Assembly (NCBI RefSeq): GCF_000377765.1
Contig: NZ_KB898668.1
Coordinates: forward strand, 62,001 to 126,000
Direction: 5' to 3'
Source of the DNA: Gracilibacillus lacisalsi DSM 19029
GTDB lineage: Bacteria; Bacillota; Bacilli; Bacillales; Amphibacillaceae
DNA: 64,000 nt
Position numbers and translations under genes: made by a program. How positions within the stretch are numbered: position 1 is the first letter of the stretch; every line of letters begins with the position of its first letter. Below are positions 12,384-46,186 of this stretch, piece after piece. The notes beneath the pieces were generated by a model. It searched no databases, was not told the DNA's origin, and saw only the letters and a program-made list of their open reading frames with translations.

Positions 12384-12900
12384 CTTTTCATATCTTGCTT
12401 TTGTATAAAAGTTATGATTCGGGTGGTTATACACTTTCCTTAAAAATTAAGAAAAACCAGCTAACCCCCGCCGGTCCTTTATTACTTTAGTAGTAATGAT
12501 GAAATATTTGAACAGCTCGACCACCGCTCCGGCCCCCTTCCCTTTCCGTGGGGTTTGTCCTTCAGCTAACTTTTTTGAGCAAAACCCGCTCAAAAAAGTT
12601 AGCTGAAGGTCAAACAATTCCCACAGGAGTTGAAGTGGGCGGTCTTCGCTAGTATCAGGCTCTACAACGCTAGCATGAAGTAACACAGATGCTTTTATAC
12701 TCACGTATAGCGGTCCATTGTAAAGAACGTCGACCTATTACTTATGACAAGAATTGTTGCACCTTCTCATAGCGGAGACTCTTCGGGAATAGCGCGAGTC
12801 AAAATCCACTTTGCAAAGTTAGTTGAGGTCATGAACGTGGAAAGCGAAGTAATTAGTCGTAGCGTTGCCAATATACATCAAACATCTCAAAATAACTACT
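12384..12900. repeat. Diverged two-unit palindromic repeat, fla/che-codY intergenic region
   Basis: The 861-bp gap between flgB and codY holds two inverted hairpin units related to those at 26, 31 and 46 kb. The plus-oriented unit (about 12520-12650) has CTCCGGC, CTTTCCGTGGGG, TTCAGCTAAC, an apical stem CTTTTTTGAGC (12570-12580) with GCTCAAAAAAG (12588-12598), and CCCACAGGAG. A degenerate minus-oriented unit (about 12766-12870) keeps GTGGAAAGCGAAGTA and CACTTTGCAAAG. A leading segment at 12384-12455 resembles 17318-17395. No protein-coding gene is credible here. Confidence 0.8.
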
Positions 12901-16861: not shown

Positions 16862-17400
16862 TAAGAAATTAGATTAAGAAAAACTGAGCAAAATTCGCTC
16901 AGCCCTTATGACTAAAAAGCTAAAGGTTTACCATTTCTCTAGCATCCATTTTGAAATATTTGAACAGTCTTACCACCACTCCGGCTGCCCACTTTCCTTT
17001 CCGTGGGGTTTGCCCTTCAGCTAACTTTTTCGAGCCAAAACCGCTCGAAAAAGTGGATCTTCAGGTCAAACAGTTTCCACAGGAGTGAAAGCGGGCGGCC
17101 TTCGCTATATATATGTACTACAACATTTGTCAGATTAGGCAATTTCAGTTGTTATCCCTGTGAAAGTACTAGGAAATTACTAATAAGGTCTATAAAACCC
17201 AATAACCTTTTTCTACTATTCGTCGTAGAAAAAGAATAGCGAAACGGCCAGCCATAGCGATTGACTTGCACTAGCTAGCTTTCAGCTATTCTTGCTTCTT
17301 AAAATATACGTATTGAATCACCTTTTCCTATTATACTTGCTTATAAAAGTTGTGATATCAATGGTTTTATACTTTCCTTACAAGTAAGAATAACTGAGCA
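16862..17400. repeat. Palindromic repeat region in the trmFO slot (xerC-topA)
   Basis: The 832-bp gap between xerC and topA contains no credible gene. A hairpin unit at about 16977-17107 is the sister of the 12.5-kb unit: CTTTCCGTGGGG, TTCAGCTAAC, apical stem CTTTTTCGAGC (17025-17035) with GCTCGAAAAAG (17043-17053), then CCACAGGAG and GGGCGGCC. A separate perfect hairpin has arms 17208-17216 and 17225-17233. The segment 17318-17395 resembles 12384-12455, including ACTTTCCTTA and TAAGAA. The rest is AT-rich with nothing recognised. Confidence 0.75.
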
Positions 17401-26239: not shown

Positions 26240-26730
26240 TTCGCAGTAGATAGATACTGCGAAGTAATGAAAGGAGAAAAAGTGAGGCTTTCTCCCATTC
26301 TGCTTAATGATGAGTGCTCACATACGCTCCGGCAGAATACTGCGCTTTCCGTGGGCTTGGCTTCAGCTAACTTGGTGAAGAAAGGCACTTCACCAAGTGG
26401 ATCTTCAGCTCTCGCTGTCCCACAGGAGTCTCCGTATTCTGCCTACGCTGTGTAAATAATTCTACCTTATATAAGAGGAAATACTCGGGAACCAGTACCC
26501 GTGTGTTACTTCTTTCAATAATCAGAACACTACGCAAAGCGGAGGCAAGATACGTAGACTCCTACGGGAACAGCGCGAGCCGAAGACCCCGCAGGAAAGC
26601 GATCTTTGCTTTCTGAGGAGGCTAAGGCCGTGCGCGTGGAAAGCGAAGTATCTTGCCGGAGCGCATGTAAGAACTCAGCAAAATGCAGTACAGGAAGAGA
26701 GCAAATTCTTGTCATGTTATTTCGCAGTAT
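26240..26730. repeat. Composite palindromic element, copy 1 (rnhB-rbgA)
   Basis: The 693-bp gap between rnhB and rbgA is mostly one composite element. The left end is a small palindrome (TTCGCAGTA and TACTGCGAA) followed by AAGTAATGA. The right end is the related inverted sequence ending TTTCGCAGTA. Two inverted hairpin units lie between: unit 1 (26326-26452, GGCAGAATACTGCGC type, apical stem 26371-26380 with 26388-26397) and unit 2 (about 26531-26663, the GGCAAGATACTTCGC type, inverted). A linker of about 80 bp separates them. Only chance reading frames are seen. Confidence 0.88.
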
Positions 26731-26756
26731 ATGTATTTTGTGCTTTCTTTTCATAC

Positions 26757-30093: not shown

Positions 30094-30480
30094 TTATGTA
30101 ATTTTCTTAATCATGCCATCCTTTATAATAATGGATTTTTGTTCTGTTAAGTCATCCCAGTTCATACCTTCTTCAATATCGATAACTGCTTCAACTTCTC
30201 CATCATTAATTTCACTTCCAATTGGTAATATTTCCAACTGTTCGAGTTTGTATTTATACCAATTAATATGGTCCTTCCGATTAGATAACTCTTTTTTGAA
30301 TTTGGCTGCGATATCAGCTTTTTTGTTGGCTGAGCGTTGTTCTAATTTTTTCTGCTCAAATTTTAATTGTTCACATTCCTGTTCAAGTTGAAAAATTTTA
30401 AATTGGTATTCTTCTCGCAATTGTTCTTTACTTTGATCAGTTACTATTTTTTTGACGGCTACTTTTTTAATAATTTTCAT
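30094..30480 (-). CDS. ylqD: YlqD family protein
   Basis: This conserved Bacillus protein of unknown function sits between khpA and rimM. From the chosen ATG (30480, with AGAGAGGCTG upstream) it has 128 residues. A basic N-terminus (MKIIKKVAVKKIVTD) is followed by a Gln/Glu/Lys-rich coiled coil (about residues 18-70) and a short beta-rich C-terminal part (LPIGSEINDGEVEAVIDI). A longer in-frame start at 30531 lies upstream of the probable promoter and is rejected. The ribosomal neighbours suggest a translation-related role. Confidence 0.85.
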   Translation of the reverse strand: MKIIKKVAVKKIVTDQSKEQLREEYQFKIFQLEQECEQLKFEQKKLEQRSANKKADIAAKFKKELSNRKDHINWYKYKLEQLEILPIGSEINDGEVEAVIDIEEGMNWDDLTEQKSIIIKDGMIKKIT

Positions 30481-30532
30481 TGTTTCAGCCTCTCTCTCAT
30501 CCCTATTAAAGAGTATGGAAACACCTATCAAA

Positions 30533-30604: not shown

Positions 30605-31142
30605 TTCGTAGTAGATATATACTGCGAACTAGTAAAAATTTGTGGAGTGAAGCTTTCTTCCATTCTAACTTTAACTGAGTGCTTACTTACGCTCCGGCAA
30701 GATACTACGCTTTCCACGGGCACGGCCTTAGCCAGGGAACTACTTGAAATAACTTCTTTGCTCCCTTGCACCGAGGAAGCCTGCTACGAAGCATTACTAG
30801 AAGACGCAGGTGCATCACGGGGTCTTCGGCTCGCGCTGCGTCGTGAGGAGTCTACGTATCTTGCCTCCGCTTTGCGTAATGTCCTGAATTTTGAAAGAAG
30901 TAATAACAGGAAATGGTTACTGAGCAGTTCCAGGTAGAATTATCTAAATAGCGTAGGCAGAATACGGAGACTCCTGTGGGACAGCGAGAGCTGAAGATCC
31001 ACTTTGCAAAGTGATTTTCTTTGCAAAGTTAGCTGAAGCCGAGCCCACGGAAAGCGCAGTATTCTGCCGAAGCGGTTTGCATGCACTCTCAAAGTGAAGC
31101 ATGGTAGAGAGCAATTCCTTGTCCTCGTTACTGCGCAGTTTA
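30605..31142. repeat. Composite palindromic element, copy 2 (ylqD-khpA), interior inverted
   Basis: This element fills most of the 729-bp gap between ylqD and khpA. The left end (TTCGTAGTA, TACTGCGAA, then GTGAAGCTTTCTTCCATTCT) matches the left ends of the other two copies. The right end (GAGAGCAATTCCTTGTC ... CTGCGCAGTT) matches their right ends. The interior (30691-31074) is in the opposite order and orientation: the GGCAAGATACTACGC unit comes first and the GGCAGAATACTGCGC unit last, and the linker is also inverted. No credible gene lies in it. Confidence 0.9.
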
Positions 31143-31177
31143 TTAATACAGCGCTCTATTTATTTAACCGTTCTGCT

Positions 31178-31211
31178 AAAAAAAGAGGGGGCTTTTCGCC
31201 TCCCTCTTTTT
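31178..31211 (-). terminator. Rho-independent terminator at the end of khpA
   Basis: An A-rich left arm with GAGGGG pairs with CCCTC and a T-run around a GCGAAAAGC-type tip. It overlaps the khpA stop codon and separates khpA from ylqD. Confidence 0.85.
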
Positions 31212-31437
31212 ACATGATATCTAAATAGATTTTTTTATTAGATTTCATTCCAGCTGCATAAACAACTGTTCGTATTGATTTGGCAATGCGACCATTCTTG
31301 CCGATCACTTTACCTACATCATTTTCATGAACTTGCAGGTGATACACAACTTTGTTTTCCTCTTCTTGTTCGGTCACAACGATGTGCTCAGGATGATCGA
31401 CTAACGGCTCCACAATTGTTTCAATCAAAGATTTCAT
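31210..31437 (-). CDS. khpA: KH-domain RNA-binding protein KhpA (YlqC)
   Basis: KhpA is a small RNA-binding protein that partners KhpB/Jag in cell-elongation control. The 75 residues carry a single KH domain with the signature GKVIGKNGRIAKSIRTVVYA (about residues 38-57). It follows rpsP by 17 bp and is the last gene before a terminator. Confidence 0.95.
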   Translation of the reverse strand: MKSLIETIVEPLVDHPEHIVVTEQEEENKVVYHLQVHENDVGKVIGKNGRIAKSIRTVVYAAGMKSNKKIYLDIM

Positions 31438-45615: not shown

Positions 45616-46162
45616 TTCACAGTAGATATATACTGCGAAGTAATGAAAATTTTGTGAAGTGAGGCTTTCCTCCATTCTTTCCATAGGAAGTACTGGAATA
45701 CCGCTCCGGCAGAATACTGCGCTTTCCGTGGGCTCGGCTTCAGCTAACTTTGCAAAGAATACCACTTTGCAAAGTGGATCTTCAGCTCTCGCTGTCCCAC
45801 AGGAGTCTCCGTATTCTGCCTACGCTGTGTAAATAATTCTACCTTATATAAGAGGAAATACTCTGGAACCAGTACCCGTGTGTTACTTCTTTCAATAATC
45901 AGAACATTACGCAAAGCGGAGGCAAGATACGTAGACTCCTCACGACGCAGCGCGAGCCGAAGACCCCGTGATGCACCTGCGTCTTCTAGTAACGCTTCGA
46001 AGTGGCTTCCTCGGTGCAAGGGAGCAAAGAAGATACTTCCAAGTAGTTCCCTGGCTAAGGCCGTGCCCGTGGAAAGCGAAGTATCTTGCCGGAGCGCATG
46101 TAAGAACTCAGCAAAATGCAGTACAGGAAGAGAGCAAATTCTTGTCATGTTACTTCGCAGTT
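45616..46162. repeat. Composite palindromic element, copy 3 (recG-fakA)
   Basis: This element fills most of the 652-bp gap between recG and fakA. It has the same order as the rnhB-rbgA copy: left palindrome (TTCACAGTA, TACTGCGAA), unit 1 (45703-45830, apical stem 45748-45757 with 45765-45774), a nearly identical linker, and inverted unit 2 (about 45908-46096) with a longer, branched apical part. The right end is TACTTCGCAGT. Unit 2 is about 55 bp longer than in copy 1. No credible gene is present. Confidence 0.88.
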
Positions 46163-46186
46163 TATGATTTTGTGCTCAAATTGGAT

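Follow-up and report, generated by a model that had tools for sequence, protein, structure and literature searches.

Intergenic repeat elements of Gracilibacillus with shared sites, changing contents and a core found in two orientations

In this study, we analysed a family of intergenic repeats, starting from three copies in a 64,000-nucleotide stretch of the Gracilibacillus lacisalsi DSM 19029 genome (the window). The elements are modular, non-coding and MITE-like, and they contain a directional core that lies in either orientation between asymmetric ends. Their sites look older than their contents: position and direction are shared between genomes, and the interiors have been replaced, reversed and reassorted. 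The usual view of intergenic repeats in bacteria is that copies are gained and lost by transposition. The explanation that we prefer, and to which we give an even chance of being correct, is that the sites are fixed, often downstream of a terminator-like hairpin, and that the cores are replaced in either orientation as dispersed copies recombine. Should data at the level of strains bear this out, the family would make concerted evolution and modular exchange of non-coding DNA accessible to study.

The three elements in the window follow one plan, in which a left end (L) of about 60 bp is followed by a hairpin unit, a linker of about 90–100 bp, a second unit placed tail-to-tail with the first and a right end (R) of about 40 bp; the limits of units and linkers were set by eye. 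In the 31-kb element, the L end (30605..30664, plus strand; L-end profile match 30607-30664) opens with the 24-nt hairpin TTCGTAGTAGATATATACTGCGAA in a single-strand fold, and a hairpin opens the L end in all three elements. Then come unit B in the left position (30696..30865, minus strand; hairpin GGCAAGATAC...GTATCTTGCC), the linker (30866..30955, minus strand, opposite to the 26- and 46-kb linkers), unit A in the right position (30956..31068, minus strand; hairpin GGCAGAATAC...GTATTCTGCC) and the R end (31106..31143, plus strand, matched by the R-end profile). Unit A adjoins the L end in the two other elements, both on the plus strand. The 26-kb element (26240..26733; L012) consists of L at 26240-26299 (profile match 26242-26299), A at 26330-26443, the linker, B at 26544-26657 and R at 26696-26733, and the 46-kb element (45616..46166; L004) of L at 45616-45676 (profile match 45618-45676), A at 45708-45820, the linker, B at 45921-46090 and R at 46129-46166. 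The initial annotation had proposed that the L ends and the R ends of these elements, which start at 26240, 30605 and 45616, are homologous. The profile matches bear this out and, being all on the plus strand, show one direction; the proposed coordinates are accurate within a few bases, as the 31-kb copy has an R end that extends to 31143. Few open reading frames are present in the three copies, and these are overlapping, 80–134 aa long and located on both strands, which is our basis for calling the elements non-coding. As a single strand, the 31-kb element folds with −105 kcal/mol (z −8.3; 0/100 shuffles as good). Across 88 elements the size ranges from 277 to 929 bp, with 82 of the 88 between 370 and 610 bp, and in the consensus aligned from 86 L and 87 R ends an inward-read ACTGCGAAGTAA is found at both ends, forming terminal inverted repeats. 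The window also holds two lone D-type hairpin units (12520-12672 and 16972-17125) that have no L or R profile match alongside and share 85–90% identity with the D unit that Gracilibacillus suaedae has at its counterpart of the 31-kb site.

The interior runs as A, linker and inverted B in the 26- and 46-kb copies, and as B, linker and A on the other strand at 31 kb. When the 46-kb modules were used as blastn queries, both ends of the 31-kb copy matched on the plus strand, and unit B (95.5%), the linker (75.6%; strand-test score 74 versus 19) and unit A (98.3%) all matched on the minus strand, so that the opposite interior that had been reported for this copy, linker included, is confirmed. The two cores are 91% identical in inverted orientation over 402–412 bp, and the 46-kb core, although of the opposite state, is the closest core to that at 31 kb.

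We built L- and R-end profiles and then scanned 126 loci from three genomes: the G. lacisalsi genome itself, which is a 4.41-Mb draft of 44 contigs, that of the nearest named relative found, G. suaedae LD4P30 (RimM 95%; about 93% at the DNA level), and that of a relative, G002, which is a single contig of 5.09 Mb. Correctly paired L and R ends define an oriented set of 88 elements (37 from G. lacisalsi, 27 from G. suaedae and 24 from G002), which includes orthologues, so that counts on it are not independent. The orientation state is undefined at the other 38 of the 126 loci (8, 14 and 16, respectively), because these have no detected L–R pair. Among them are ten loci, nine in G002 and one in G. 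suaedae, with L-type matches at both ends, so that some copies lack two distinct ends. Copy numbers for G. lacisalsi are lower bounds, 40 of 182 candidate places having been scored in the first search, and the BLAST matches (102 in G. lacisalsi, 116 in G. suaedae and 96 in G002) count pieces rather than elements. The outer arm served to assign each unit to type A (CGGCAGAATACT), B (CGGCAAGATACT), C (GCGGAAAAATACTC) or D (CGGCTGCCCACTTCC), with one unit untyped in 10 of the 88 elements. Given as L-side and R-side type, the combinations are DA 15, AB 6, AC 5, BA 4, AD 4, AA 2 and CA 1 in G. lacisalsi; DA 9, CA 5, BA 5, AC 4, CB 1 and three with an untyped unit in G. suaedae; and CA 8, AC 5, BA 2, AB 1, BC 1 and seven with an untyped unit in G002. 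Each of the three core types, A/B, A/D and A/C, is therefore present in both orientations among the 88 elements of the three genomes.

The strand of the linker could be scored in 68 of the 76 labelled copies (reference copies score themselves). It matched the order of the units in 14/14 scored A/B copies (18 labelled), in 27/27 scored A/D copies (28 labelled) and in 27/27 scored copies of the A/C type (30 labelled, with two B/C copies among the 27). This coupling in 68/68 scored copies indicates that the core reverses as one block. Independent assembly from single units had been offered as the alternative to an inversion, and it is disfavoured because linker strand and unit order are uncoupled in none of the scored copies. 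The states are mixed on core trees, where the minimum number of state changes is 5 for A/B (18 copies), 2 for A/D (28 copies) and 7 for A/C (28 copies). As few changes were obtained in 172/500 shuffles for A/B, 5/500 for A/D and 40/500 for A/C; the A/D states thus cluster, the A/C states do so somewhat, and the values for both show that the state is partly inherited, and flips may be few. The change counts are not flip counts, since conversion between cores of opposite state can mix the trees, and a single ancient inversion could lie behind every reversed core.

Loci were paired between genomes by their unique flanks, which gave 25 pairs of filled sites (16 G. lacisalsi/G. suaedae, 6 G. lacisalsi/G002 and 3 G. 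suaedae/G002); three further pairs with one matching flank were left uncounted, and an odd match between L012 and L071 was set aside (neighbouring 26-kb site, same locus). Flank identity between genomes that share sites is about 82–97%. The L-to-R direction is kept in all 25 pairs and is opposite in none. On both sides, the flank alignment comes within 10 bp of the element in 12 of the 16 G. lacisalsi/G. suaedae pairs; in all nine pairs with G002, a gap of more than 10 bp is left on one side or both. The contents of the same sites are different. By label, core type and state agree in 4/16 G. lacisalsi/G. suaedae pairs, to which L026/L152, with one untyped unit, may add a fifth, and in 1/9 pairs with G002. 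Unit A lies on the other side in 10/25 pairs (4/16 G. lacisalsi/G. suaedae, 4/6 G. lacisalsi/G002 and 2/3 G. suaedae/G002). The 31-kb site, which enters three of the 25 pairs, holds B..A in G. lacisalsi, D..A in G. suaedae and A..B in G002; the 46-kb site holds A..B, C-like..A and A..C in the same order; and the 26-kb site holds A..B in G. lacisalsi and A..C in G002, and in G. suaedae is cut by a contig end, with an A-type arm adjoining R. In only one of the 25 comparisons does the orthologous core rank first among the cores of the other genome, and there it is not inverted; by this measure no core lay both ways round at one orthologous locus, and an interior that is a turned copy of its orthologue is rare. 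In 22 of the 25, the best paralogue within the same genome outscores every core of the other genome.

Ten further G. lacisalsi elements were followed into G. suaedae by a search with one flank, which was found in 10/10 cases; both flanks align in seven and one in three. A search with concatenated flanks used 10 of 14 flanks, and five of the ten resulting G. suaedae sites were inspected. At three of the five, a GCGGACAT repeat takes the place of the core, with both element ends present in L254, R alone in L251 and L alone in L257. Of the other two, L250 has a collapsed core in which an A arm is joined directly to a C arm, and L253 has a broken D unit. The repeat itself (GCGGACAT...ATGTCCGC, near 1501-1698 in L259-L288) has at least 40 matches each in G. 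lacisalsi and G. suaedae; an L- or R-profile match, often weak, is located at one edge or more in 21 of these 30 loci, and on both sides in 8/30. In L257, which is the orthologue of the L003 site, the cut GCGGACAT repeat is followed (1880-2600) by an ORF that by eye resembles an IS3-type transposase, and the right flank of this locus does not align to the G. lacisalsi genome.

Replacement reaches well beyond the core. In the 16 G. lacisalsi/G. suaedae pairs, mean identity is 87% for the L flank, 93% for the R flank and 84–85% at the outer boundary of the element. The L ends of the same pairs are 70% identical versus 64% in the non-orthologous background, and the R ends 74% versus 71%, and these low values relative to the flanks indicate that much of the element, ends included, has little orthology. 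Partial replacement is also seen: in L006/L226 the L end and the A unit are kept (L segments 97–100% identical) and the right half and R end are changed, and in L021/L247 the left side is kept at 92%. Among pairs of G. lacisalsi cores that are at least 90% identical, L/R-end identity is 74/78% for same-state pairs (n=31) and 68/75% for opposite-state pairs (n=26), little above the background of 67/73% over all 666 G. lacisalsi pairs. Ends and cores reassort. They vary largely independently, which, if seen without a two-state pattern, had been named as evidence against the inversion; the two-state pattern of the core block holds. Some copying of whole elements is suggested as well by the slightly more similar ends of close cores in the same state and by L001 and L002, which have a common state and ends that are 98/86% identical.

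According to the explanation that we prefer, interiors would turn over through gene conversion and unequal exchange between dispersed copies, and the exchanges would end within the shared ends and within the units' inverted outer arms. A core could then be pasted in either direction, because its two arms resemble each other in inverted orientation, and two states would be the result. The 31-kb copy would be one product of such exchange rather than a switch in action. The exchange is inferred from sequence comparisons to proceed by recombination, which may involve conversion and RecA. The homology available for conversion looks poor, because the arms are short and diverged and replacement usually extends almost as far as the outer boundary, at which the sequence common to paralogues is only about 20 bp long.

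A different explanation, which we consider unlikely and still treat as a serious rival, is that a trans-acting transposase, working on the shared ends, removes pre-existing subfamilies, one for each state, and re-inserts them in a site- and direction-specific manner, the preferred targets lying downstream of terminators; one site would then hold different elements in different species. It owes its weight to the fact that unrelated interiors fit between the ends and that direction is so strict. The presence of the GCGGACAT repeat at three G. suaedae sites, the extension of replacement nearly to the outer boundary and the hairpin formed by the L end all speak in its favour, as do strong preferences for target and strand. 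The 31-kb element illustrates the target: it lies between ylqD on its L side (30094..30531, minus strand; Pfam YlqD, E 6.1e-34) and khpA on its R side (31210..31437, minus strand; Pfam KH_KhpA-B, E 9.9e-25), and just past the khpA stop a terminator-like hairpin with a T-run (31177..31209, minus strand) is aimed at the element. In the terminator scan (locus L001) this hairpin has −15.8 kcal/mol and lies about 40 bp outside R, with the T-run 41 bp outside R. The 26-kb element is flanked by genes for a ribonuclease HII and a ribosome-binding GTPase and the 46-kb element by recG-like and fatty-acid-kinase-like (FakA) genes (Pfam). Among the 88 elements, a terminator-like hairpin with a T-run, 21–65 bp outside R and pointing at the element, was found for 51; outside L, such hairpins are aimed at the element in 6/88. 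Hairpins that point away number 21/88 on the R side and 10/88 on the L side. The longest ORF on the R side is aimed at the element in 78/88, and the longest ORFs of both flanks run from R to L in 65/88 and from L to R in 6/88.

The strand preference is clearest in G002, where the element strand agrees with the inferred replichore in all 24 copies with both ends (L179-L208, L229-L238): 19 are on the minus strand between 0.01 and 2.42 Mb, where GC skew is positive, and five on the plus strand between 2.62 and 4.63 Mb, where it is negative, two of them near zero. On the L-to-R strand, flank GC skew is negative for 30/37 G. lacisalsi and 23/27 G. suaedae copies. Judging from GC skew, a replication fork would reach an element from its R side. 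These counts do not distinguish an effect of gene direction from one of replication direction. Both the strand rule, with the R end apparently toward the fork, and the address, downstream of terminator-like hairpins, are clear.

As to the enzyme that re-insertion calls for, the search covered the Y1 transposase family. Pfam PF01797 (Y1 transposase) is matched in 12 of the 17 genomes of the genus, in G. suaedae by a fragment only, and it has no match in G. lacisalsi, G002, G003, G004 or G011. Three Y1 genes of RAYT-like length in other members of the genus (L316, L317 and L318; 254–276 aa) have no element match nearby. Comparison of eight Y1 loci with the elements gave no match at seven, the eighth (L312, 166 aa, in G015) having related hairpin units about 1.1 kb away, and a partner of the IS200/RAYT type was rejected on these grounds. 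The solo palindrome CGYAGTA-N1-4-TACTRCG was considered as a target or footprint and has no exact match in the three genomes, so that an element targeting such a palindrome is unsupported. Re-insertion also leaves unexplained the reassortment of ends and cores and the half-element replacement in L006/L226, and it would demand high target precision, given the 12 of 16 G. lacisalsi/G. suaedae pairs in which position agrees within 10 bp.

The region around khpA is present in 17/17 genomes of the genus. By eye, the khpA/ylqD interval contains an element with similar ends in G. lacisalsi, G. suaedae, G002, G012, G001 and G013. In G011, it contains an 853-bp composite of similar hairpin units with quite different ends (GGATTATGTAAACTA...; L297), which suggests that the genus may have several types of end, and in G007 1227 bp of other sequence. 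The interval is nearly empty (55–186 bp) in G005, G008, G010, G004, G014, G003 and G006; ylqD was unmatched in G015, and the G016 site is near a contig end. No target-site duplication was seen by eye against these near-empty intervals, which come from seven more distant congeners and are too diverged to give the element a usable boundary. This distribution suits a gain within the genus followed by a change of contents, with losses possible.

The initial annotation had proposed that a core of the 31-kb copy was inverted in place by recombination between its inverted flanking arms; such a core might act as a slow switch between two states. The block structure on which this idea rests has stood up: the core behaves as a strict block in the scored copies, linker included, it occurs in two orientations, and inverted arms flank it. 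Two sites also look favourable at first. The B..A core of the 31-kb site faces A..B in G002, the inner part being 80% identical in inverted orientation over 254 bp between flanks of 88–90%, and the 46-kb core matches that at the G. suaedae site inverted, with 74% identity over 374 bp. In both cases the partner genome holds better matches elsewhere (L180 ranks 3/24 and L161 ranks 5/27), and orthologous sites hold other cores, so that the in-place flip at the 31-kb locus is not supported and in-place inversion as the main mechanism has been set back by the comparison of orthologous sites. The inverted outer arms within one element are only 70–73% identical over 47 nt, which would make them poor substrates for homologous recombination. 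Reversed D units keep their own outer flank (40 bp measured, 88–89% identical between the sides), and the A/D copies L032, L039 and L040, when their left side was read, have A-unit spacers that resemble those found around other A units in the left position; neither is expected from an inversion with two breakpoints. Because of these flanks and the divergence of the arms, a simple two-breakpoint inversion fits poorly, and we regard this explanation as improbable. An inverted interior alone is not evidence of a switch.

Slightly less probable still is a reading in which the ends and the terminator-proximal sites serve as docking sites, where a dedicated, replication-coupled recombination system swaps any of several hairpin cores, as non-coding cassettes, in either orientation; if it were true, genomes would keep such sites in the long term and continually reshuffle their contents. 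That short-read misassembly joined the wrong interiors to the sites is very improbable: the G. lacisalsi draft does have contigs that end inside elements (C23, C29) among its 44, and two copies with runs of N (L009, L033), but the single contig of G002 contains both states of A/C (8 CA, 5 AC) and of A/B (2 BA, 1 AB), for which reason the draft assembly is not a likely cause of the reversal, and the closest long cores differ at about 3–9% of positions, which makes many junctions unique.

Returning to exchange among dispersed copies as the preferred explanation, several known repeat families can be set beside the Gracilibacillus elements, although the titles and opening lines of abstracts in the open-access literature contained no description of this family. 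From the part of the account considered here, BOX elements of Streptococcus pneumoniae are non-coding, interspersed and strongly folding sequences of 67–637 bp with a boxA–boxB–boxC organization, of which one genome has 125; they have terminal inverted repeats and a strand distribution that mirrors coding bias (PMC3049150). The modular plan is alike, compared by description only, and the Gracilibacillus elements differ in that their core block lies in both orientations between asymmetric ends and that interiors differ at orthologous sites. The strand bias also differs, agreement with the inferred replichore being 24/24 in one Gracilibacillus genome and the leading-strand share of BOX elements 60.8% (PMC3049150). 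Correia elements and NIMEs of Neisseria are, in the text covered, likewise composite and present in many copies, with an interior bordered by inverted repeats, which are 26 bp long in Correia elements; a two-state core block goes unmentioned in that text, and the comparison is again by description. REPINs and BIMEs with their RAYTs, in the portion of the literature covered, share with the Gracilibacillus elements the inverted pairs of palindromic units, the intergenic location and the many copies, and long Y1 genes do exist in the genus. The Gracilibacillus units are larger (about 110–170 bp versus 20–40 bp for REPs), and unlike in REPIN/RAYT systems there is no Y1 match in G. lacisalsi or G002 and the long Y1 genes elsewhere are not flanked by elements.

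In invertible phase-variation switches, a block is found in two orientations between inverted repeats and is turned by a site-specific invertase. The Gracilibacillus elements are unlike these in being non-coding, in their imperfect arms and in having interiors that differ between orthologous sites.

Searches of other collections gave few matches. Phage records had none for the 46-kb core, and plasmid records had one, in Radiobacillus kanasensis, with 78% identity over 48% of the query. The only Rfam matches on the elements were sub-threshold ones to tsr24 (RF02577), one of which has 34.6 bits against a gathering score of 50. This match, at 26439-26681 (linker and unit B of the 26-kb copy), spans the whole family model (E 4.6e-06, 561 bases), and the sRNA tsr24 of Staphylococcus aureus shares with this region the blocks AGACUCC, AGCCGAAGACC and GGAAAGCGAA. 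As the score is below the cut-off, we do not identify the unit as tsr24 itself; the alignment suggests a repeat family spread more widely among Bacillales, which would include the hairpin unit and of which the S. aureus tsr24 RNA may itself be a member.

Two minor observations were made in G. suaedae. At L218, one flank matches the G. lacisalsi element L222 and the other a G. lacisalsi contig end (L220), which points to an element where the sequence was either rearranged or wrongly assembled. At L150 and L156, nearly identical sequence lies outside the L end and the cores are different.
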